Positions 11,162 through 28,039 of a stretch of 28,039 nt of DNA are shown piece by piece. A program made the position numbers and the translations under genes. Where the stretch lies: the IMG/VR virus record IMGVR_UViG_3300007513_001276, positions 1 to 28,039 of that record. One strand, given 5' to 3'. The stretch comes from a virus. Each line of letters opens with the position of its first letter. Positions within the stretch are counted from its first letter, which is position 1. The notes under the pieces are model-generated. The model did not search any database. It was given only the letters and a program-made list of their open reading frames with translations, and was not told the origin of the DNA.

Positions 11162-11875
11162 ATGTTAGTTAATGAAATAATCAAACAAGTAGAAGAGGGA
11201 GTAGATGACCCTCACATTTTTAAAGCAGTTTTCATGGCTGGTGGTCCTGGAAGCGGTAAGTCTTATATTGCAAAATCAAGATTATTAAAGGGTAGTGGCT
11301 TAAAAATTGTCAATTCAGATGACGTATTCGAGTTTAAAATGGGCAAAGCAGGATTAGACTTTGAAGACCCAGAAGTCATATACAGTCCACAAGGTCAAGA
11401 AATTAGAAATAAAGCAAAAGATACTACAGCAACAATGGAAGCCGGATATCTTAGAGGTAGATTGGGAATAATTATAGATGGTACTGGAAGAGAGATAGGC
11501 AAGATAGCAGGTGCTAAAGAAAAGTTAGTTAATATGGGCTACTCATGTATGATGGTTTTCGTTAATACAAGTTTAGAAGTAGCACAAGCAAGAAATCTAG
11601 ACCGAGAAGGTAGAACTATTAAACCTGAAGAAGTAGAAAAAATGTGGAATGCAGTTCAAAATAACATAATGAAATTCCAACAATTATTTGGTGCAGATAA
11701 ATTTCAGATTGTAGACAATAATGGTGGTCTTGAAGACCCAGATAGAGCAGAGAATTTTAGAGTAGTTGAGAAAAACATTACGGCTTTTATTAATCGTCCA
11801 CCTTCAAATCCTTATGCGAAAAACTGGATAGAAAACGAGAGAAAGAAAAAGAATGCAAATCTTAAACAAGAATAG
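11162..11875 (+). CDS. P-loop kinase, zeta-toxin/adenylate-kinase-like, 237 aa
   Basis: A Walker A motif GGPGSGKS at residues 27-34 follows a beta strand (KAVFMA). KIVNSDDVFE supplies the acidic residues seen after the P-loop in zeta toxins and polynucleotide kinases, LGIIIDGTGRE (around residue 101) is a Walker B-like strand, and the R-N-L-D-R-E-G-R segment near residue 142 fits a lid with arginines. The family phosphorylates small molecules or nucleic-acid ends; the substrate cannot be told. Similar kinases are common in marine T4-like phages. No antitoxin gene is adjacent. It is controlled by tandem early and late promoters and leads into the glycosyltransferase 7 nt downstream. Confidence 0.85.
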   Translation: MLVNEIIKQVEEGVDDPHIFKAVFMAGGPGSGKSYIAKSRLLKGSGLKIVNSDDVFEFKMGKAGLDFEDPEVIYSPQGQEIRNKAKDTTATMEAGYLRGRLGIIIDGTGREIGKIAGAKEKLVNMGYSCMMVFVNTSLEVAQARNLDREGRTIKPEEVEKMWNAVQNNIMKFQQLFGADKFQIVDNNGGLEDPDRAENFRVVEKNITAFINRPPSNPYAKNWIENERKKKNANLKQE

Positions 11876-12796: not shown

Positions 12797-14731
12797 ATGG
12801 GATTAATTAAAAAGTTTGAAAAATCGTATGCGAGTAAAGAACACGAGGAGATGTCACTTTCTGATTATCTTGCATTGTGTAAGAAAGACAAGTTAGCATA
12901 TGCATCCTCGGCAGAGAGATTGCTGGATGCAATTGGAGAACCTGATGTAGTCGATACTAGCAACGATGCTAGATTGAGTCGTATATTCTTAAATCGTACG
13001 ATTAAAGTCTATCCAGCATTTAGTGACTTTTATGGTATGGAAGAAGCAATTGAGAGATTAGTTGCATATTTTCGTCAGTCTGCTCAAGGACTCGAAGAAA
13101 AGAAACAAGTCTTATATCTACTAGGACCAGTTGGTGGTGGTAAATCATCATTAGCAGAACGTCTAAAAGAATTAATGGAAAAGCACCCAATCTATGTGCT
13201 TAAAGCAGGAAACGACATCTCACCAGTATTTGAATCACCACTAGGACTATTTGAGCCTAAAGAGTTTGGTGATGATGCTAAAAAAGAATTTAAAATCCCA
13301 TCACGTTATCTTACAGGTTTAATGTCACCATGGGCAGTTAAAAGACTAGATGAGTTTGAAGGCGACATTTCGAAGTTTAGTGTTGTTAAAATGTACCCAT
13401 CTAAGTTAAAGCAAATTGCTTGTATGAAGACTGAACCAGGTGATGACAACAACCAAGATATTTCAGCACTAGTTGGTAAGACTGATATTCGTAAATTAGA
13501 ATTCTTCTCACAAAATGACCCAGATTCATACGCATTTTCGGGTGCGTTATGTCGTGGTAATCAAGGTGTTATGGAATTCGTAGAGATGTTTAAAGCACCA
13601 ATCAAAGTATTACATCCATTATTAACAGCAACACAAGAAGGTAATTACATGGGAACTGAAGGTATTTCAGCAATTCCATTTAATGGTATCGTAGTTGCTC
13701 ACTCAAATGAGAGTGAATGGGAAACATTTAGAAATAATAAGAACAATGAAGCATTTTTGGACAGAGTATATATCGTTAAAGTTCCATATTGTGTACGTGC
13801 CACAGAAGAAACATTTATCTATCAGAAGATGTTAGATGCATCAGGACTAGATAGTAGCAAATGTGCGCCACATACACTTGATTTGTTATCACAGTTCTCA
13901 GTGCTTTCAAGATTAAAAGAACATAAAAACTCTAACTTAGCGGCTAAGATGAGAGTCTATAATGGTGAAAACTTACACGACATAGACCCTAAGGCAAAGT
14001 CAATGCAAGAGTATAGAGATGTTGCAGGTGTAGATGAAGGAATGAATGGAATGAGTACTCGTTTTGCATTTAAGATTCTTTCACAAACATTCAACTTTGA
14101 CGCAGAGGAAATTGCGGCTGACCCAGTACATCTTATGTATGTGTTAGAAACTGCAATCAAACGTGAACAGTTTCCAGAAGAAACGGAAGAACAGTTAATA
14201 GGTTTTATTAAAGACCACTTAGCAGTTAAGTATAGTGAACAAGTAGGAAAAGAAATTCAAAAAGCATACTTAGAGAGTTATAATGAATATGGTCAAAATC
14301 TATTTGATAGATACTTAGATTATGCTGACCATTGGATTCAGAATATCGATTATAAAGATTCTGACACTGGTAACTTGTTTGACCGTTCTATTCTTAACGA
14401 AGAACTTGAGAAGATTGAAAAGCCTGCAGGTATTGCCAATCCAAAAGACTTTAGAAATGAAGTTGTAAACTGGGTATTACGTGCAAGAAGCAACTACAAA
14501 GGCAAGAATCCACCTTGGACTTCTTATGAGAAGATGAAAGAAGTGATTGAACACAAGATGTTTGCAGGAACAGAAGAATTGCTTCCAGTTATTTCATTTG
14601 GTAGCAAGAAATCTAAAGAAGACCAATCTAAACATGATGATTTCATAGATAGAATGGTAACAAAAGGTTACACGACACGTCAAGTTAAACGATTAGTAGA
14701 ATGGTATATGCGAGTACAGAAGTCTAACTAG
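12797..14731 (+). CDS. prkA: PrkA/YeaG-family serine protein kinase, 644 aa
   Basis: The full-length protein matches the PrkA (YeaG) layout: an AAA+-like N-terminal module with Walker A GPVGGGKS at residues 110-117, long conserved stretches including LKAGNDISPVFESPLGLFEP and ALCRGNQGVMEFVEMFKAPI, LLTATQEGNYMGTEG, and a C-terminal kinase-like module (DWIQNI-type helix, ARSNYKGKNPPWTSYEKMK). In bacteria PrkA is a serine kinase or AAA+ protein used in stationary phase, nitrogen starvation and sporulation. It is followed by YeaH and SpoVR homologues, the same trio that co-occur in proteobacteria. The block is under a late promoter. GAGG precedes the ATG. No frameshift or missing motif was noticed. 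Confidence 0.95.
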   Translation: MGLIKKFEKSYASKEHEEMSLSDYLALCKKDKLAYASSAERLLDAIGEPDVVDTSNDARLSRIFLNRTIKVYPAFSDFYGMEEAIERLVAYFRQSAQGLEEKKQVLYLLGPVGGGKSSLAERLKELMEKHPIYVLKAGNDISPVFESPLGLFEPKEFGDDAKKEFKIPSRYLTGLMSPWAVKRLDEFEGDISKFSVVKMYPSKLKQIACMKTEPGDDNNQDISALVGKTDIRKLEFFSQNDPDSYAFSGALCRGNQGVMEFVEMFKAPIKVLHPLLTATQEGNYMGTEGISAIPFNGIVVAHSNESEWETFRNNKNNEAFLDRVYIVKVPYCVRATEETFIYQKMLDASGLDSSKCAPHTLDLLSQFSVLSRLKEHKNSNLAAKMRVYNGENLHDIDPKAKSMQEYRDVAGVDEGMNGMSTRFAFKILSQTFNFDAEEIAADPVHLMYVLETAIKREQFPEETEEQLIGFIKDHLAVKYSEQVGKEIQKAYLESYNEYGQNLFDRYLDYADHWIQNIDYKDSDTGNLFDRSILNEELEKIEKPAGIANPKDFRNEVVNWVLRARSNYKGKNPPWTSYEKMKEVIEHKMFAGTEELLPVISFGSKKSKEDQSKHDDFIDRMVTKGYTTRQVKRLVEWYMRVQKSN

Positions 14732-14743
14732 AGGAAGACTTTC

Positions 14744-16087
14744 ATGGCAAATACAATTATCGACAGAAGAAAGAATGGGGACTTAAGACAACCTGGTTCA
14801 AAATCTTCTAACAATCGACAAAAATTTATCAAAAGAACTAAAAAAGAGATACGTAAAAGTATACATGATACTTTGGGTAAACGAAGTATCAAAGGTTCTG
14901 GCGATGCCCAAGATGTAGTCATCAATCGAAAAGGTATTGATGAACCTCAATTCAGTCATAATCCACAAACAGGCTCACGTGATATAGTTCTCCCAGGCAA
15001 CAAAGAATATGTTGAGGGCGATTTATTACAGAAACCAAAAGGTGGCGGTGCTGGCAGTGGTGGTGCTTCTGGTAAAGCAAGTAATGAAGGCATCGGCGAA
15101 GACGAATTTGGATTTGCGTTAAGTAATGACGAATTTGTTAACATCTTGTTTGAAGACTTAGAACTTCCTCATATGATTTCCAAAGAAAACAAAGCGGTTG
15201 AACGTTTTGAGATATCTCGTAGCGGATATACAACTGACGGCACTCCAGCACAAATGAATTTAGAGAAAAGCATGGTCAATTCTCTTGGTCGTAAGATTGC
15301 TTTAAAAACTCCAAAACTAAAAAAGATTAAAGAACTACAAGAAGAACTTGACAATCTTGATAAGTTCTTTTATAAGACAACAAAAGAACAAAAAGAAGCA
15401 ACAGAAGAATGGAAACGATATCAAGAAATCGAAGAAGAAATTCGTAAGTTGCGTATCAGAGCAAATGCTGTTTCATTCGTTGACCCAGTTGATTTACGAT
15501 ATAATAATTTTACTAAGAAACCAGCACCAATATCACAAGCAGTTGTATTCTTTATTATGGATGTGAGTGCAAGTATGACAGAACAACATAAAGACTTAGC
15601 AAAACGATTTTTTATGTTACTTAACTTGTTTGTATCTCGAAAATACAAAAGAGTAGAGTGTGTTTTTATCAGACATCACATTCTAGCAATGGAATCCTCT
15701 GAAGATGAATTTTTTAATAGCAGAGATAACGGTGGTACAATAGTTTCAAGTGCATTTAAACTTTCGAAAGAAATCCTTGCTGACCGTTATTCGCCAAATG
15801 AATGGAACATATATTTTGCTCAAGCAAGTGACGGTGACAACTTTGATAATGACAATGAAGAACTTAAGGATATCATTGTTAATGATATATTACCTATAAC
15901 TCAATATTTTAGTTATATTCAAGTAGGAACAAAGAGACATGGTTATTACAATAGTGGAAACTTATTACAGGAATATGTACCATTACAAGCACAACATAAG
16001 AACATGGTAACTAAACACATAGAAGATACTTCTGACATATATCCAGTGTTTAGAGAAATATTTAAAATTAGAGGTAAAAATGAGTAA
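14744..16087 (+). CDS. yeaH: YeaH/YhbH-family (DUF444) VWA protein, 447 aa
   Basis: The N-terminus is typical of the family (IIDRRKNGDLRQPGSKSSNN), with a conserved SIKGSGD-type loop and a glycine-rich linker at residues 99-110. The C-terminal half is a von Willebrand A domain with a MIDAS-like DVSASM at residues 273-278 and GGTIVSSA and QASDGDNF motifs. It is the usual partner of PrkA and probably bridges or regulates the kinase. It lies 12 nt after prkA with AGAGGAAG as ribosome binding site and overlaps the SpoVR gene by 8 nt, so the three are one operon. Length is normal for the family. Confidence 0.93.
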   Translation: MANTIIDRRKNGDLRQPGSKSSNNRQKFIKRTKKEIRKSIHDTLGKRSIKGSGDAQDVVINRKGIDEPQFSHNPQTGSRDIVLPGNKEYVEGDLLQKPKGGGAGSGGASGKASNEGIGEDEFGFALSNDEFVNILFEDLELPHMISKENKAVERFEISRSGYTTDGTPAQMNLEKSMVNSLGRKIALKTPKLKKIKELQEELDNLDKFFYKTTKEQKEATEEWKRYQEIEEEIRKLRIRANAVSFVDPVDLRYNNFTKKPAPISQAVVFFIMDVSASMTEQHKDLAKRFFMLLNLFVSRKYKRVECVFIRHHILAMESSEDEFFNSRDNGGTIVSSAFKLSKEILADRYSPNEWNIYFAQASDGDNFDNDNEELKDIIVNDILPITQYFSYIQVGTKRHGYYNSGNLLQEYVPLQAQHKNMVTKHIEDTSDIYPVFREIFKIRGKNE

Positions 16088-17606
16088 TTTAATATATACA
16101 GGTTCTAGTTGGAATTTTGATAAACTATATCGTATGATGGATGCGTGTGAAGAAATCGCAATCAACGATATGGGACTTGATTGTTTCCCTAATCAGATTG
16201 AAGTCATTACAGTAGAACAAATGTTAGATGCATACTCAAGTGTTGGCATGCCATTGATGTATAATCATTGGAGTTTCGGTAAAAGTTTCATTTCAAATCA
16301 AAAACAGTATAGTGCAGGACAGATGGGATTAGCATATGAGTTAGTTATTAATTCTAATCCTTGTATCAACTATCTTATGGAAGAAAACTCTATGACAACA
16401 CAATCTCTTGTGATTGCTCATGCGGCCTTTGGACATAATCACTTCTTTAAGAATAATTATCTGTTTAAGCAGTGGACATCACCAGATGCAATTGTTGATT
16501 ATCTATTATTTGCAAAAAGATACATAAGAGAATGTGAAGAAAAGTATGGTGTAACGGCAGTAGAGGAAACACTAGATGCGTGTCATGCCATTCAATATCA
16601 AAGTATTAATAAGTATAAAAGACCTAATAGAATATCAGCAAAAGAAGAAATAGAACAACAACGCACAAGAAGTGAATATCTTCAGTCACAAGTAAACGAC
16701 TTATGGCGCACATTACCAGAATCTAAAAAAGAAGAGAAAAAAGAAGAAAAGAACTGGCCAACAGAGCCAGAAGAAAATTTATTATATTTCTTAGAAAAGC
16801 ATTCGCCAATTTTAACTGCATGGCAACGTGAGATATGTAGAATCGTTAGACGAGTAGCACAATATTTTTATCCTCAATATCAAACAAAAGTGATGAATGA
16901 AGGTTTTGCAAGTTTTACACATCATTATATATTCAATAAATTATACGATGAAGGTAAAGTAGATGATGGTGCAATGATTGAATTCTTTAGATTACATAGT
17001 GCAGTACTAAATCAACCATCTTTTGATTCGCCTAATTATGTTGGATTCAATCCATACACATTGGGCTTTTCTATATTGAAGGATATTCAACGAGTTTGTT
17101 TAGAACCAGATGAAGAAGATAAACGATGGTTTCCTCATCTAGCAGACACAGATTGGCGTATTGCAATCAAAGATATTGCCGCTAATTATCGTGATGAGAG
17201 TGCAATCCTGCAATTTCTAGGACCGAAAGTTATTCGTGACCAAAAAATGTTTAATTTACATGACGAAGTTCATTATGACGATTATAAAGTTACGTCAATA
17301 CATGATGACCGTGGATACAAAAAGATTCGTAAGAATTTAAGTTCTAGTTATGAAACAGCCTCAATGATACCTGATATTCAAGTAACAAATGCTGATATCA
17401 AGGCTACACGTGATTTAACACTATTACATGAAAGTTATAAAGGAAAGAGATTAGACGAAAAAACAGCAAATCAAGTTTTATCACATGTACAGAAGTTGTG
17501 GGGATATAAAGTAAAATTATACACAATGCATGGTGAAACATTATTAGATGTATTTGAATGTAAACAAGTTTCTAATGAAAAAGTAGGTTCAAATCTCATA
17601 GTATAA
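16080..17606 (+). CDS. spoVR: SpoVR/YcgB-family protein, 508 aa
   Basis: The sequence carries SpoVR hallmarks: MPLMYNHWSFGKSF, GLAYELVINSNPCINYLMEENS, VIAHAAFGHNHFFKNNYLF, ILTAWQREICRIVRRVAQYF and NEGFASFTHHYIFNKL, plus NYVGFNPYTLGF later. Several histidines and glutamates in these motifs look like metal ligands. SpoVR acts in Bacillus spore cortex formation, and its proteobacterial relative YcgB works with YeaG/YeaH in starvation responses; the biochemistry is not known. The ATG overlaps the yeaH stop. Length matches bacterial relatives, so it is probably functional. An early promoter for the next block lies 14 nt beyond the stop. Confidence 0.95.
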   Translation: MSNLIYTGSSWNFDKLYRMMDACEEIAINDMGLDCFPNQIEVITVEQMLDAYSSVGMPLMYNHWSFGKSFISNQKQYSAGQMGLAYELVINSNPCINYLMEENSMTTQSLVIAHAAFGHNHFFKNNYLFKQWTSPDAIVDYLLFAKRYIRECEEKYGVTAVEETLDACHAIQYQSINKYKRPNRISAKEEIEQQRTRSEYLQSQVNDLWRTLPESKKEEKKEEKNWPTEPEENLLYFLEKHSPILTAWQREICRIVRRVAQYFYPQYQTKVMNEGFASFTHHYIFNKLYDEGKVDDGAMIEFFRLHSAVLNQPSFDSPNYVGFNPYTLGFSILKDIQRVCLEPDEEDKRWFPHLADTDWRIAIKDIAANYRDESAILQFLGPKVIRDQKMFNLHDEVHYDDYKVTSIHDDRGYKKIRKNLSSSYETASMIPDIQVTNADIKATRDLTLLHESYKGKRLDEKTANQVLSHVQKLWGYKVKLYTMHGETLLDVFECKQVSNEKVGSNLIV

Positions 17607-20397: not shown

Positions 20398-20826
20398 ATG
20401 AAATTAGTTGATAAAAGCGATAAGATATTAAAAACTGTGTGTGATGAGCATATTATTTCAGAAGAATCTGAAAAATTAGTATATGATATGATTGTTGCCA
20501 TGCAAGAACATGATGCATTGGGTCTTGCGGCACCACAAGTTGGTGAAAACACTAGATTAATGATAATAGGGCATAAAGATACTGGGTTCGTGGTATGTAT
20601 AAATCCAGAATGGGAAGTAGCAGAAGATAGTGAAGATGAAGAATTCTTAGAAGGATGTGTAAGTTTTCCTGGTTTAGAGTTAACGATAACAAGACCTAAT
20701 AAGATTATAGGAACATTCACAGATTTACAAGGTATGAGGAAGTCATCTAGTTTTGTTGGTGTGTGGGCACAAGCATTCCAACACGAATGCGACCATCTTG
20801 ATGGAATAACATTCGACACTCTATAA
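20398..20826 (+). CDS. def: Peptide deformylase, 142 aa
   Basis: All three deformylase motifs are present: GLAAPQVG (42-49), EGCVSFPG (85-92, Cys 87 a metal ligand) and QHECDH (128-133, HExxH with H129, H133 and catalytic E130). It removes the formyl group from nascent proteins at the ribosome exit. It is short and lacks the C-terminal helix of bacterial enzymes, as do the deformylases of marine cyanophages. AAGGAAG precedes the ATG, and a late promoter ends 25 nt upstream. With IF3, bS21 and possibly an ArfA-like protein it is one of several translation genes here. Confidence 0.95.
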   Translation: MKLVDKSDKILKTVCDEHIISEESEKLVYDMIVAMQEHDALGLAAPQVGENTRLMIIGHKDTGFVVCINPEWEVAEDSEDEEFLEGCVSFPGLELTITRPNKIIGTFTDLQGMRKSSSFVGVWAQAFQHECDHLDGITFDTL

Positions 20827-23755: not shown

Positions 23756-25246
23756 ATGTTATTTCCAATAATTACATTTATAACCGCCATTGCAATTGCG
23801 GCAATTGCCGCTTGGTTTTCAGTTTATGGTCTTATGGCTATATTTACGGCATCAGCAGTTGCCGTTGCCATTATGGCAGTAGCACTAGAAGTTGGTAAAT
23901 TAGTATCAGCATCGTGGGTGTACCGTAACTGGAATAGGGCACCATTTCTTTTAAAATCTTATCTTACAATCGCAGTAATAATTCTAATGCTCATTACTTC
24001 AATGGGTATCTTTGGTTTTCTATCAAAAGCACATTTAGAACAAGCGGCTGACAGTGACGAAAACACTGCTCGTATTGAACGTATTGTTCAGGATATGGAA
24101 AGATATGAGATTTCAACAGATAGACTTGAAGAAAAAATTACAAAATTAGATGATGAAAGTGAAGTAGACACTTCAAAAATACAAGAACAAATCGATACAG
24201 AGGAAGCAAGAATGGACAATGTTATGGTCCGAATTCAGCCTGCTATCGATGAACAGAATTTAATCATTAGTACTGACTTAGAAAAAGATGATGAAAAGAT
24301 TGCTCCATATCTAAATCAATTAGATAACTTAGATAGAGAACTTCTTAGTCTTGAAGAACAGGCTAAGAAACTTGAACAAGATATTATTAATGTTGGTAAA
24401 GATACAACAAATTATGATTATGCAGTAAAACCATTCAATGACCAGATTGATAAAATCAAATCAGACATAGCAACATTTAAAGAAATGTCTAAATCTGGTG
24501 AACAAGCAGACCTTAAGAAAGCACAACAAGTAGTTGGTATACCTTGGGGATATTGGAGAAATTCAGAAGTTGTTGCTGAATGGAATGCAGACCAAGAAGT
24601 AAAGTTGACACAACTAGGAACAAAGATTGCAGAAGTTCGTAAAGACTTTGAAAGACAATACAAACTAGAACGTACCAGTCTTAGAAGACTAGTTACAAAA
24701 TTGAGAGGCGAAGACACACAGGCTGTTAATGAACGTAAGATGGAATTACTAGTAAAAATTGAAGAAGCAAGAGGAGTTGAATCCTCTGTAATATCTTCCG
24801 CTAGAGATGAAATCAAAAGATTACGTGAAAAAGCAGATAGAGAAGTTGCAGGTTCTTTAATCATTCTTGACCGATTAAGAAATGAATTACTCAACGTATC
24901 ACAAATTGACAATTCAGTAGAGATTGATACATTACAATTACAAATCAATAATAACGAAAATTCTATTGATGGATTGATAGACCAAAAGTTTGAATTAGAA
25001 CGAGAGATTAGACAAATTGAAACAGAGATTGGACCTATCAAGTACATTGCAGAGATGGTATATGGTAACACAGAAAGAGATACAATTGACCAGGCAGTTA
25101 GATGGCTTATCATTGTGTTCATTTTTGTATTTGACCCATTAGCAGTATTACTTTTACTCGCCGCTAATTACAGTTTCATTCATAGGGACTTGGGTGGCAA
25201 ACAGAAAGAAATTTTTGATAAAGTTTCTTTCAAAAAAAAAAAGTAA
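23756..25246 (+). CDS. Membrane-anchored coiled-coil protein, 496 aa (0-frame product)
   Basis: AGAGGAGG is a strong ribosome binding site. Residues 1-45 hold two hydrophobic segments (FITAIAIAAIAAWFS and LMAIFTASAVAVAIMAVALE), residues 65-88 a third (YLTIAVIILMLITSMGIFGF), and about 445-475 a C-terminal one (WLIIVFIFVFDPLAVLLLLA). Between them, residues 95-440 are long coiled coils rich in E, K, L and Q (for example RIERIVQDMERYEISTDRLE). Similar coil-containing membrane proteins recur in T4-like marine phages, without known function. The frame ends in KKKK-stop at an A11 run, where a -1 shift would add 94 residues (see 25243-25527). Confidence 0.85.
   Translation: MLFPIITFITAIAIAAIAAWFSVYGLMAIFTASAVAVAIMAVALEVGKLVSASWVYRNWNRAPFLLKSYLTIAVIILMLITSMGIFGFLSKAHLEQAADSDENTARIERIVQDMERYEISTDRLEEKITKLDDESEVDTSKIQEQIDTEEARMDNVMVRIQPAIDEQNLIISTDLEKDDEKIAPYLNQLDNLDRELLSLEEQAKKLEQDIINVGKDTTNYDYAVKPFNDQIDKIKSDIATFKEMSKSGEQADLKKAQQVVGIPWGYWRNSEVVAEWNADQEVKLTQLGTKIAEVRKDFERQYKLERTSLRRLVTKLRGEDTQAVNERKMELLVKIEEARGVESSVISSARDEIKRLREKADREVAGSLIILDRLRNELLNVSQIDNSVEIDTLQLQINNNENSIDGLIDQKFELEREIRQIETEIGPIKYIAEMVYGNTERDTIDQAVRWLIIVFIFVFDPLAVLLLLAANYSFIHRDLGGKQKEIFDKVSFKKKK
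25237..25243 (+). promoter_or_regulatory. Candidate -1 ribosomal frameshift site A_AAA_AAG
   Basis: In the 0 frame the heptamer reads A AAA AAG and is followed at once by TAA. A AAA AAG is the slippery site of E. coli dnaX. The run of 11 A (25232-25242) precedes it. No strong downstream hairpin or upstream Shine-Dalgarno stimulator was found by eye. Confidence 0.6.
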
Positions 25247-25537: not shown

Positions 25538-26791
25538 TTGGCAGAAAATAAAGAATTCAAGTGTTCGTTTTGTGGAAAACCAAAGAACGACATCAAAACA
25601 TTAATTGCTGGACCTAACCAGTACATTTGTAATGAGTGTATTGATTTATGTCATGATATTATTCATGAGGTAAAAAAAGAAGAGAAACAAGATTATACAT
25701 CTATTTCTACCACTCCTGAAGAAATCAAAGAGTACTTGGATAACCATGTTATTGGTCAAAACGAAGCAAAAGAAGTGGTATCAGTTGCCGTTTATAATCA
25801 CTATAAACGTATCAATGCAACAGATACAGGAGTTGAACTAGATAAATCTAATATCTTATGTTTTGGACCTAGTGGCACAGGTAAAACTTTAATAGGCAAA
25901 ACTATTGCTAAATTTCTTGATGTACCATTTGCTCAAATCGATGCAACTACCCTAACTGAAAGTGGTTACGTTGGTGAAGACGTAGAGAATGTAGTACAAC
26001 GTTTGTTAATAGCATCAGATTTTGATATTGAAAAAGCAGAACGTGGTATCGTGTATATTGATGAAATTGATAAGAAAGCCAAGAAAGGTGAAAACTTATC
26101 AATCACAAAAGACGTTTCTGGCGAAGGTGTTCAACAGGCATTACTTAAAATCGTAGAAGGAACAGTAGTTCGTGTTCCACCAGGCGGTGGTCGTAAGCAT
26201 CCAAACCAAGAGATGATTGAAGTAGATACAAGAAAAATCTTATTCATTGTTGGTGGTGCATTTGTAGGTATTGATAAGATTGTAGAAAACAGAGTCAATA
26301 CAAGTCCTGGGATTGGTTTTAGTGCCAAACAAAAGGGAAGTAGTGAGTGTAATACTAGAGAACATATCAGAGCAACAGATTTTCTTAAATATGGATTGAT
26401 TCCAGAATTTATGGGTAGATTTCCAATTATAGTTGGACTTGATGAATTAACAGAAGAAGAATTAGTTAGAATTCTAATTGAACCAAAGAACAGTATAATT
26501 TCACAATTTAAGATGTTATTCGCTTTAGACAATGTAGAATTAGAAGTTGGTGATGAGGCTTTACAAGCAATTGCCAATGTAGCACATGAAGATACAACAG
26601 GTGCAAGAGGACTAAGAAGTGTAATAGAGAAGTCATTGTTAAAGACTCAATTTAAACTTCCAAAACTTGCAAAGGATGGACTTATAAAAGTTATCATTAC
26701 TAAAGATTTTATTTCAGGCACCACAGATAAGCCAATATTGGTTTATAAAGAAAAGGATGCTAAGGAGCCAGAACAAAAAGTAGATGGCTAA
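25538..26791 (+). CDS. clpX: ClpX, AAA+ unfoldase of the ClpXP protease, 417 aa, TTG start
   Basis: A full-length ClpX: zinc-binding domain with C9, C12, C31 and C34; Walker A GPSGTGKT (110-117); pore loop GYVG (143-146); Walker B IVYIDE (171-176); RKH loop (219-221); IGF loop (259-261) that docks on ClpP; arginine finger region FMGRFP (291-296); sensor 2 GARGLR (355-360). It unfolds tagged or adaptor-bound proteins and feeds them to ClpP. No clpP gene is in view, so it presumably uses host ClpP. The TTG start has AGAGG at a good distance and gives the expected N-terminus; no ATG nearby is better. It overlaps the IF3 gene by 8 nt. Confidence 0.97.
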
Positions 26792-27323
26792 GTTTTATAA
26801 GGACAATCGAAAAGATAGGATTGTATATAATCATCAAATAAAATTTGATACGTTGCGAGTGATAGGTTCCGACAGAACTACACTAGGAGTAATGAGTAAG
26901 AAAGAAGCCTTGGCTCTTGCAGACTCAGAAAATTTAGACTTAATATTGATTGTACCGAAGGCAAAGCCACCTGTTGCTAGAATTATTGAGTTGAATAAGT
27001 ATAGATACGAGCAACAAAAGAATGAAAAAGAAATGGCTAAAAAAGCCAGGGCGGCACGAATTGATACAAAAGAAATAAAGTTTAAACCTAATATAGGTGA
27101 ACACGACTTGCTCATAAAAATGAAACATGCACAAGAGTTTTTAGATAATGGAGCAAAAGTAAAAATAACAATTCAGATGCGTGGTCGAGAAAATGCAAAC
27201 AAGTCAGATGTGTTTACATTTTTTAAAGAAGCAATAGAAACACATTTAGTGAATTTTAAATATGATTCAAATTTAGCATTAAATGGAAATAGAATAATAG
27301 GAGTTTTGTTTAAAGATGGGTAG
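26784..27323 (+). CDS. infC: Translation initiation factor IF-3, 179 aa
   Basis: Length and order match bacterial IF3. N-domain: [38 protein letters not shown] (residues 51-68) and the helix linker [21 protein letters not shown]-domain: KEIKFKP (96-102), [20 protein letters not shown] (106-125), MRGREN (132-137). IF3 binds the 30S platform, keeps 50S off and checks the initiator tRNA and start codon. Here the usual PPVC is PPVA and the usual DYGK is ELNK, small departures from the norm. The start is ATG, not the autoregulating AUU of host infC. It overlaps clpX upstream and rpsU downstream. Confidence 0.95.
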
Positions 27324-27579
27324 ATACGTACCAAAAAAGAAAAAAACGGGCAGAGAAAGACCGATAGGTACGCACGTAGACGTCCAACATGACAACTTCG
27401 AAAGAGCATTAAGACTTTGGAAGAGAAAATGTTCAGATGCAGGAACAGTACAAGAAGTCAGAGAAAGACAAGCATTCATCAAGCCAACAGAAAAAAGAAA
27501 AAAGATGAAAGCGGCCGCGAAACAACGTACAAAACGTGAACGAGCAAAGAACAAACTACATAAGAAAAGATTATATTGA
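27316..27579 (+). CDS. rpsU: Ribosomal protein bS21, 87 aa
   Basis: From residue 23 the sequence follows bS21: VQHDNFERALRLWKRKCSDA, GTVQEVRERQAFIKPTEKRK, then a lysine- and arginine-rich helix ending in KKRLY. The family is normally about 70 residues; this one has about 20 extra basic residues at the front ([15 protein letters not shown]). bS21 sits on the 30S platform near the anti-Shine-Dalgarno end of 16S rRNA and helps mRNA selection. Phage bS21 genes are known in marine phages, but here it lies next to IF3, which acts at the same platform. The ATG overlaps the infC stop and the stop overlaps the next start. Confidence 0.95.
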   Translation: MGRYVPKKKKTGRERPIGTHVDVQHDNFERALRLWKRKCSDAGTVQEVRERQAFIKPTEKRKKMKAAAKQRTKRERAKNKLHKKRLY

Positions 27580-27821
27580 TGTCAACTGATATACTTGAAA
27601 CTTTAGACGTAAGAACTCTACAGAAAGAATCCGCTAGAGCATTGCTAACTATGGACGGAACAAGTCATGGAATAGCACGTTTTAATAAATTAGCACATCA
27701 TAATTCCCAGAATTGGTACAAAGCAGTATTACGAGAATACATAGAAAAACACGGCGGACTCCCAAAAGATGTGGGTCCGGCAAAAGACATATTATTGTTT
27801 TCGGAGAAAATTGGTTGTTAA
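27579..27821 (+). CDS. Hypothetical protein, 80 aa, between bS21 and PyrB
   Basis: ATG at 27579 overlaps the rpsU stop (TGATG); a TTG one codon earlier is less likely. The product is helical, with KESARALLTMDGTSHGIARF and a second segment NKLAHHNSQNWYKAVLREYI, then GGLPKDVGPAKDILLF. No known family was recognised. Its 3' end overlaps the presumed pyrB start by 7 nt, so it is translated within the clpX-infC-rpsU-pyrB series. Confidence 0.7.
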   Translation: MSTDILETLDVRTLQKESARALLTMDGTSHGIARFNKLAHHNSQNWYKAVLREYIEKHGGLPKDVGPAKDILLFSEKIGC

Positions 27822-28039
27822 TTAGCATCGATGATATTGATATTCAAGAAATCTTAAACCTAGCATCTTCTATTGAAAAACATGGACCAACTCGAACCTA
27901 TCCAGACAAAATCTTAGCAAATCTATTCTATGAACCTAGCACTAGAACTAGTTCAAGTTTCGCCAGTGCTATGTACAGACTTGGTGGAAATGTCATATCT
28001 ATTAATGATGTAAACTATAGTAGTGTTGCAAAAGGTGAA
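27815..28039 (+). CDS. pyrB: Aspartate carbamoyltransferase, N-terminal part, 3' end outside the window
   Basis: The first 75 codons are visible. ISIDDIDIQEILNLASSIEK is the usual first helix of the catalytic chain, FYEPSTRTSSSFASAMYRLG (residues 38-57) carries the STRT carbamoyl-phosphate-binding motif, and SSVAKGE (69-75) the conserved loop; the ISI-start and SSVAKGE favour aspartate over ornithine transcarbamylase. It would catalyse the first committed step of pyrimidine synthesis. TTG at 27815 is chosen as start because GGAG lies 8 nt upstream and no in-frame ATG exists nearby; the frame overlaps the previous stop. A pyrB gene in a T4-like phage is unusual. Confidence 0.88.
   Translation, partial: MLISIDDIDIQEILNLASSIEKHGPTRTYPDKILANLFYEPSTRTSSSFASAMYRLGGNVISINDVNYSSVAKGE

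Follow-up and report, generated by a model that had tools for sequence, protein, structure and literature searches.

The IMG/VR virus record IMGVR_UViG_3300007513_001276 (28,039 bases, probably a fragment; hereafter the window, meaning its whole length) carries near one end three consecutive genes encoding ClpX, translation initiation factor IF3 and ribosomal protein bS21 (S21). A sequence-only reading had described them as an intact cassette in a phage genome. Their uninterrupted reading frames lie at the positions given there, and reading frames, model cut-offs and synteny agree that the genes are intact and that the contig is a phage's. Each gene is given below with the value for its own Shine-Dalgarno (SD) leader.

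25538-26791, plus strand: clpX, encoding a ClpX of 417 amino acids, with a TTG start; SD -5.8 kcal/mol
26784-27323, plus strand: infC, encoding a two-domain IF3 of 179 amino acids; SD 0.2 kcal/mol, that is, none of its own
27316-27579, plus strand: rpsU, encoding a bS21 of 87 amino acids; own SD -6.8 kcal/mol

The ClpX scores 545.7 bits against the NCBIfam clpX equivalog model TIGR00382 (cut-off 370.75) and also matches PF06689 and AAA_2. A C4 zinc finger, the AAA+ domain, Walker A and B motifs, a GYVG pore loop and an RKH loop could be located, with an IGF tripeptide at residue 259; the zinc-finger cysteines are invariant in our ClpX alignment (A4). We take these motifs to have the names and roles that ClpX motifs generally bear, including docking to ClpP for IGF. 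One comparison row of that alignment, and hence of the ClpX profile built from it, is the ClpX of CAKLQH020000005 (L032, ‘Acinetobacter phage MD-2021a’), a sequence that carries tig-clpP-clpX and biosynthesis genes and looks like bacterial DNA. The IF3 matches both its N- and C-domain families (PF05198 and PF00707) and scores 141.5 bits against TIGR00168 (cut-off 60) over residues 12-148 of 179. The bS21 has the PF01165 core and scores 56.2 bits against TIGR00030 (cut-off 28.95); its N-terminus is 16 residues longer than that of Escherichia coli S21 and is basic, with an aromatic residue.

The clpX/infC and infC/rpsU overlaps are 8 nt each, which had been read as the mark of a selected unit. 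This argument loses force, overlaps being ordinary in these genomes: they occur at 12 of 33 same-strand neighbour pairs in the window, 43 of 146 in phage genome G004 and 50 of 180 in G009. Because they are so common, overlap alone is weak evidence, and it is conservation of the pair that counts. The infC start lies inside the end of clpX and has no SD match of its own, so that infC in the window is probably translated by coupling; the start of a fourth gene, orf81, likewise lacks an SD match and lies inside the end of rpsU. Across the family, taking the start of the longest open frame, an SD of -4 kcal/mol or better precedes IF3 in 6 of 29 clpX-linked loci and 5 of 15 others, clpX at 13 of 29 starts and S21 at 18 of 42; coupling of infC is therefore a tendency and no rule. 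The idea that clpX regulates itself by way of its TTG start and IF3 was considered and dropped: TTG and GTG account for 4/30 starts in the window, 26/135 in G004 and 17/158 in G009, and clpX of other clades begins with ATG. Of the near relatives L002-L014, 12 start clpX with TTG and one with GTG.

Conservation of the cluster in related phages

Searching IMG/VR with an IF3 alignment from one lineage gave 146 IF3-encoding stretches, of which the best 80 were taken. With the window this made 81 IF3 rows; 12 were dropped before counting and 69 had enough flanking DNA, and removal of IF3 sequences at least 90% identical left 43 non-redundant loci. S21 lies directly downstream of IF3 (<150 nt, mostly with an 8- or 4-nt overlap) in 67/69 loci and 41/43 non-redundant ones. 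ClpX lies directly upstream in 39/69 (28/43 non-redundant), and both genes flank IF3 in 38/69 (27/43). The claim that the three genes form a unit thus stands most firmly for the IF3-S21 pair. The same models found no S21, ClpX or ORF81 in any of 80 bacterial IF3 loci with flanks of up to 4 kb; since the S21 model matched at 21 of 21 bacterial S21 loci, that absence is not blindness of the model. In E. coli the usual settings are infC-rpmI-rplT, and rpsU with dnaG and rpoD (PMC10931766).

We looked for signs that the contig is chimeric, or that the block is missing from related phages, and found neither. The order clpX-infC-rpsU-orf81, preceded by genes like those upstream in the window, is kept in all 13 of the IMG/VR loci whose sequence extends far enough in that direction (L002-L014). 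A chimera or host fragment is thereby ruled out, the upstream gene order being common to the relatives and bacterial IF3 loci being different. One relative of 146 kb (G009) gave matches to terminase, DnaB-like helicase, clamp loader, ribonucleotide reductase and DNA helicase among 10 proteins scanned, and has tRNA genes. The genes that flank the cassette in the window are as follows.

23756-25246, plus strand: MEMB, a protein of 496 amino acids, hydrophobic by eye at its N-terminus; the conserved upstream partner
27579-27821, plus strand: orf81, a protein of 80 amino acids from the ATG at 27579, predicted helical; overlaps the rpsU stop; SD -0.2 kcal/mol
27815-28039, plus strand: pyrB fragment (aspartate carbamoyltransferase), from a TTG at 27815 that overlaps the orf81 stop; cut by the window end

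The conserved unit is wider than the three genes first noticed. MEMB is found upstream in 39 of the 40 non-redundant loci with enough DNA; within 6 kb downstream Hsp20 is found in 34 of 37, ClpS in 31 of 37 and both in 30. All the Hsp20 (2/2) and ClpS (3/3) proteins that were scanned pass the Pfam cut-off. In the nearest relative (L002, refetched as L158; IF3 94% identical) hsp20 and clpS come after orf81, and they are not seen in the window because it stops before that position. Another conserved protein, U140 (140 amino acids), precedes infC at L195:7544-7960 and in 18 other sequences (alignment A5). Its AlphaFold model (pLDDT, the predicted local distance difference test score, 87.3) has an alpha/beta fold; no PDB structure matched at E <= 0.001, the best hit being a putative nucleoside deoxyribosyltransferase at 5.9e-3, and neither Pfam (one sequence scanned) nor PHROG (three scanned) gave a match. 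The conserved phage cluster is MEMB - (clpX and/or U140) - infC - rpsU - (orf81) - hsp20 - clpS. Four of its genes (clpX, infC, rpsU and orf81) are under purifying selection, with ratios of nonsynonymous to synonymous substitution rates of 0.03-0.16 between the window and five relatives.

The near relatives fall into clades A and B, between which orf81 is conserved better than its three neighbours, and only part of the wider family has it. ORF81 as a dedicated fourth partner was rejected: in phages outside the near clades it is found kilobases off or among different genes, and at many IF3 loci none is seen. A Foldseek search with ORF81 returned nothing below E = 1, and an alignment against five phage records, run with no positive control, gave no match. 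Nine loci with ORF81 relatives (L062-L066, L070, L071, L075 and L076) have no ClpX or IF3 in the stretch fetched; the last two have bL12-like and SufB-like neighbours by eye.

Parts of a Clp system are also encoded elsewhere in these phages. ClpP occurs in 5 of 14 records (L036-L040), exactly the five longer than 60 kb; in G009 and G004 the S, H and D positions are kept, by eye, and the protein has a proline-rich N-terminal extension. Transfer-messenger RNA (tmRNA) genes reach the cut-off of the alpha_tmRNA model in 6 of 14 records (L041-L046), all of clade B; a weaker match, under the cut-off, comes from a single record of clade A. The clade B genes are permuted, of alphaproteobacterial type, and upstream of the cassette in 6/6 records; tags predicted by ARAGORN end in ALAA or AIAA in three records. 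Examples are:

L010:1427-1814: tmRNA gene
L011:1109-1410: tmRNA gene
L012:3822-4129: tmRNA gene

The tmRNA type, together with the Rhizobiales hosts of cultivated phages with related ClpX, suggests that clade B infects alphaproteobacteria.

Other genes in and around these loci are recorded here for completeness. The pyrB fragment has no match among the fetched relative stretches L002-L015 and lies outside the conserved unit. Its start overlapping the orf81 stop fits a genuine insertion, yet its position is the contig end, and it may be either an insertion or a join there. A peptide-deformylase-family gene at window positions 20398-20826, a further translation-related gene, passes the Pfam cut-off and misses that of NCBIfam. 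Window positions 12797-17606 hold neighbouring prkA, yeaH (DUF444) and spoVR genes, each similar over almost its full length to the corresponding bacterial family (PrkA, DUF444 or SpoVR); SpoVR relatives were found in eight phage records, four of them uncultured phages of more than 590 kb. Positions 11162-11875 encode a P-loop protein resembling Zeta toxin and polynucleotide kinase. Downstream of the cassette in the phage contig L004, the stretch L004:13912-16543 holds a TctA-type transporter gene and a neighbour that is TctC-like by eye, with no Pfam match; also downstream is a Phosphorylase-superfamily protein (L004:18186-18899), by eye a methylthioadenosine/S-adenosylhomocysteine (MTA/SAH) nucleosidase; a like nucleosidase follows the cassette, by eye, in L005, L008, L002, L010 and L014.

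Ancestry and altered residues of the phage proteins

The phage IF3 and ClpX are of separate phage ancestry, and the IF3 group is deep. The IF3 tree was built from 46 phage and 40 bacterial rows, every second of 80 bacterial IF3 being left out. It places 43 phage sequences on one side of a branch with support 100/99, apart from the bacteria, so that phage IF3 does form a group of its own, as one proposed check had asked; this tree places the IF3 of phages Phosso and Atu_ph07 and of locus L230 outside the cassette group, though their branches are long. For ClpX a quick tree was built from 32 phage and 24 bacterial rows. All but one of the 32 phage rows (31) come together in it, Phosso and Atu_ph07 included, with a support of 100 in the Shimodaira-Hasegawa-like approximate likelihood ratio test (SH-aLRT); the ClpX of phage G is placed among bacteria.

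The bS21 tree, which has few columns, contains several phage-only groups, none inside the sampled alpha- or gammaproteobacteria. Between clades A and B identity is 33-39% for S21 and 52-60% for IF3. A recent host-derived swap of S21 between these clades is unsupported, as the window S21 joins clade B, outside the sampled gammaproteobacteria; the support for that grouping (88/82) is below the tree's own threshold, with few columns.

Nor is IF3 as rare in phages as had been supposed. In the phage collection 71 records matched, although part of these are probably bacterial DNA; in 38 the match spans 80% of the query or more. Hits from Staphylococcus, Enterococcus, Listeria and fecal records were left out.

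The C-domain of the phage IF3 differs from that of bacteria at residues which 96-100% of 80 bacterial sequences share. A bacterial E-G-R motif reads x-G-N-R in phages. Leaving out L230, the arginine (96% of bacteria) is N in 42/43 phage IF3, the glutamate is kept in 0/43, and a histidine following GREM-A (99% of bacteria) is kept in 3/43. As judged from the alignment these changes mark a divergent sub-family; they are no criterion of the curated models. By alignment two of the changed residues look like those that we take to be R168 and H137 in E. coli numbering. R168 is presumably a residue that contacts the 30S subunit, which our search of papers did not confirm.

A candidate role in initiation and proteolysis

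IF3 and bS21 meet on the platform of the 30S subunit, and both are easily exchanged parts. Made together from overlapping genes, the phage proteins would be available in matched amounts and could act on the host 30S, replacing the host copies during infection; such replacement is plausible because IF3 joins and leaves the subunit in cycles, and bS21, only loosely attached, is easily exchanged (for bS21, PMC6375957). The resulting phage-type 30S would start translation of phage mRNAs under the phage's control while keeping to the SD route. ClpX, ClpS and Hsp20, together with the phage ClpP encoded elsewhere and, in one sub-clade, tmRNA, may form a phage-owned Clp arm that holds, unfolds or degrades stalled, aggregated or host proteins as the host supply fails. 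We consider this combination of exchangeable 30S initiation parts with a Clp arm the best explanation of the cluster, at a probability of about 0.5. Entry into host ribosomes, a bias towards phage mRNAs and every substrate of ClpX or ClpS are what we infer from the genes. In favour of a Clp connection, IF3 adjoins a Clp component in three arrangements: the cassette, clpX-infC in Atu_ph07 and Phosso, and infC-clpS in phages 121Q and CBB.

Several findings weigh against this explanation. The locus counts are not independent, since the loci are related by descent and came from a search with the alignment of one lineage, which is thereby over-sampled. In 15 of the 43 loci IF3 has no ClpX beside it, and 14 of these have U140; U140 also co-occurs with ClpX in six loci, and is therefore no simple substitute for it. 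One locus (L216) lacks S21, and L230, the one outside the IF3 group, lacks both S21 and ClpX. The huge phages LR756504 and LR756511 show no matches to the S21, ClpX, ClpS or Hsp20 models within 8 kb of IF3. Like the window deformylase, the ClpS and Hsp20 of L010 pass Pfam cut-offs and miss the NCBIfam equivalog ones. SmpB was found in 0 of 14 records, most of which are fragments, so that absences from them are weak.

The leaders of phage genes also bear on the question. An SD of -4 kcal/mol or better is present in 53-54% of phage leaders vs 18-24% of shuffled ones; SD usage is thus ordinary and shows no changed mode of initiation. SD-independent initiation is unsupported on this ground. The idea that host ribosomes are reprogrammed towards phage mRNAs is weakened too, no loss of SD sites being seen, and what is to be expected is a tuning of initiation and no new mode. 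The same finding fits the main rival explanation, a pure supply role, in which spare IF3, S21, ClpX, ClpS, Hsp20, deformylase and ClpP would sustain translation and proteostasis after host shutdown with no preference for phage mRNAs. That ClpX and IF3 keep their domains and main motifs agrees with it, as do the chaperone and Clp genes within the same cluster and the deformylase-family protein in the window. It accounts less well for the deep divergence of IF3 and S21 from the sampled bacterial copies, for the altered IF3 C-domain (the change from R to N and the loss of H) and for the basic N-terminal extension of S21, and we think it rather unlikely.

With a viral bS21, translation in E. coli fell to about 5% (PMC6375957), a drop that fits poisoning as well as specialization and so also counts against our preferred explanation. 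It raises the alternative that phage IF3 and bS21 mainly disable host initiation late in infection, phage mRNAs escaping by their abundance; late expression of S21 in other phages (PMC9723584) is in keeping with this. A general block would hit phage genes too, as they have SD-type leaders, and the bS21 of that experiment came from another phage and was placed in a foreign host (PMC6375957). Shut-off therefore seems to us improbable.

For ClpX, a further explanation is that it serves as a chaperone in virion assembly or replication, its linkage to infC being inherited and not functional, which would be compatible with any account of the IF3-S21 pair. DNA replication and virion assembly are the roles suggested for the ClpX of Atu_ph07 and of phage AP-J-162 in publications (PMC6102473, PMC11242549, PMC7824862), and the loci at which ClpX is not beside IF3 point the same way. 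The three arrangements that join IF3 to a Clp component, and the position of ClpS and Hsp20 on the other side of the IF3-S21 pair, speak for a functional linkage, and we regard a chaperone role of this kind as possible but not probable.

A stronger form of the exchange-and-Clp explanation is less probable than that explanation itself, and we offer it tentatively: that this viral operon type couples initiation to proteolysis, IF3 and bS21 being swapped while ClpX and ClpS, with the phage's own ClpP and tmRNA, are turned against displaced host parts or nascent chains. If true, it would mean a cycle of initiation and turnover specified by the phage.

Comparison with known systems

The combination of three genes had been thought new. 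IF3 and S21 in huge phages (PMC7162821) and clpX adjoining IF-3 (PMC11242549) were already published, however, and what is known includes the parts, one neighbour pair, the mechanistic idea, and co-occurrence of most parts at the level of genomes. The compact conserved cluster itself appears to be undescribed in the open-licence PMC papers searched: beyond the papers named here, these yielded no phage infC-rpsU operon and no IF3-S21-Clp link, and the available text of a review (PMC10931766) mentions no such operon.

In two Rhizobiales jumbo phages, Atu_ph07 (MF403008) and the Sinorhizobium phage Phosso (PV764938), clpX is directly upstream of infC, as in the window, and the ClpX of both falls in the same phage group. 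Phosso, which has an alpha_tmRNA, differs in that there is no overlap between its clpX and infC, and its S21 is about 7 kb away. For this set of jumbo phages the ORF81 search, run with no positive control, gave no match. The ClpX of Atu_ph07 is discussed in PMC6102473, and PMC7824862 names its ClpX and IF3. In the Sinorhizobium phage AP-J-162 clpX likewise adjoins IF-3, and its genome has S21, L7/L12, Hsp20, six Clp-type ORFs and tmRNA (PMC11242549); by the gene numbers in that paper (gp532, gp517 and gp547), S21 and Hsp20 are apart from IF-3, unlike in the conserved cluster. The jumbo phages 121Q and CBB resemble the relatives of the cassette in that IF3 is followed at once by an annotated ClpS gene, but neither S21 nor ClpX lies within 4 kb of their IF3. 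That IF3 recurs beside a Clp component in such differing jumbo phages suggests a connection of initiation with proteolysis, of which we found no description in the papers searched.

Phages of Bacteroidetes that encode bS21 (Chen 2022, PMC9723584) offer another likeness: among 900 published phages, Hsp20 (127) and two Clp protease families (50 and 47) occur within 10 genes of bS21. Their bS21 lies among capsid genes and on the opposite strand, unlike that of the window, and the terms ‘IF3’, ‘IF-3’ and ‘initiation factor’ appear 0 times in the main text of that paper as available. The bS21 of pelagiphage HTVC008M (Mizuno 2019, PMC6375957) enters E. coli ribosomes. Unlike the window bS21, it groups near the protein of its host, and the available text mentions no phage IF3; that paper left unsettled whether a viral bS21 can work without further factors from the virus. 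An IF3 encoded alongside it would, we infer, be an obvious candidate for such a factor.

A precedent in concept is the description of huge phages (Al-Shayeb 2020, PMC7162821), which encode IF1, IF3, deformylase and, as in the window, S21 with basic and aromatic N-terminal extensions, and for which interception of host translation, the same mechanistic idea, was proposed. In that paper the genes are listed genome-wide; its available text describes no infC-rpsU operon or Clp link, and its main text uses ‘ClpX’ and ‘Clp protease’ 0 times. In the phages described here IF3 and bS21 are encoded as a nearly fixed neighbour pair beside Clp and Hsp20 genes, which takes the general idea of huge phages intercepting translation to a defined, conserved and testable gene unit.

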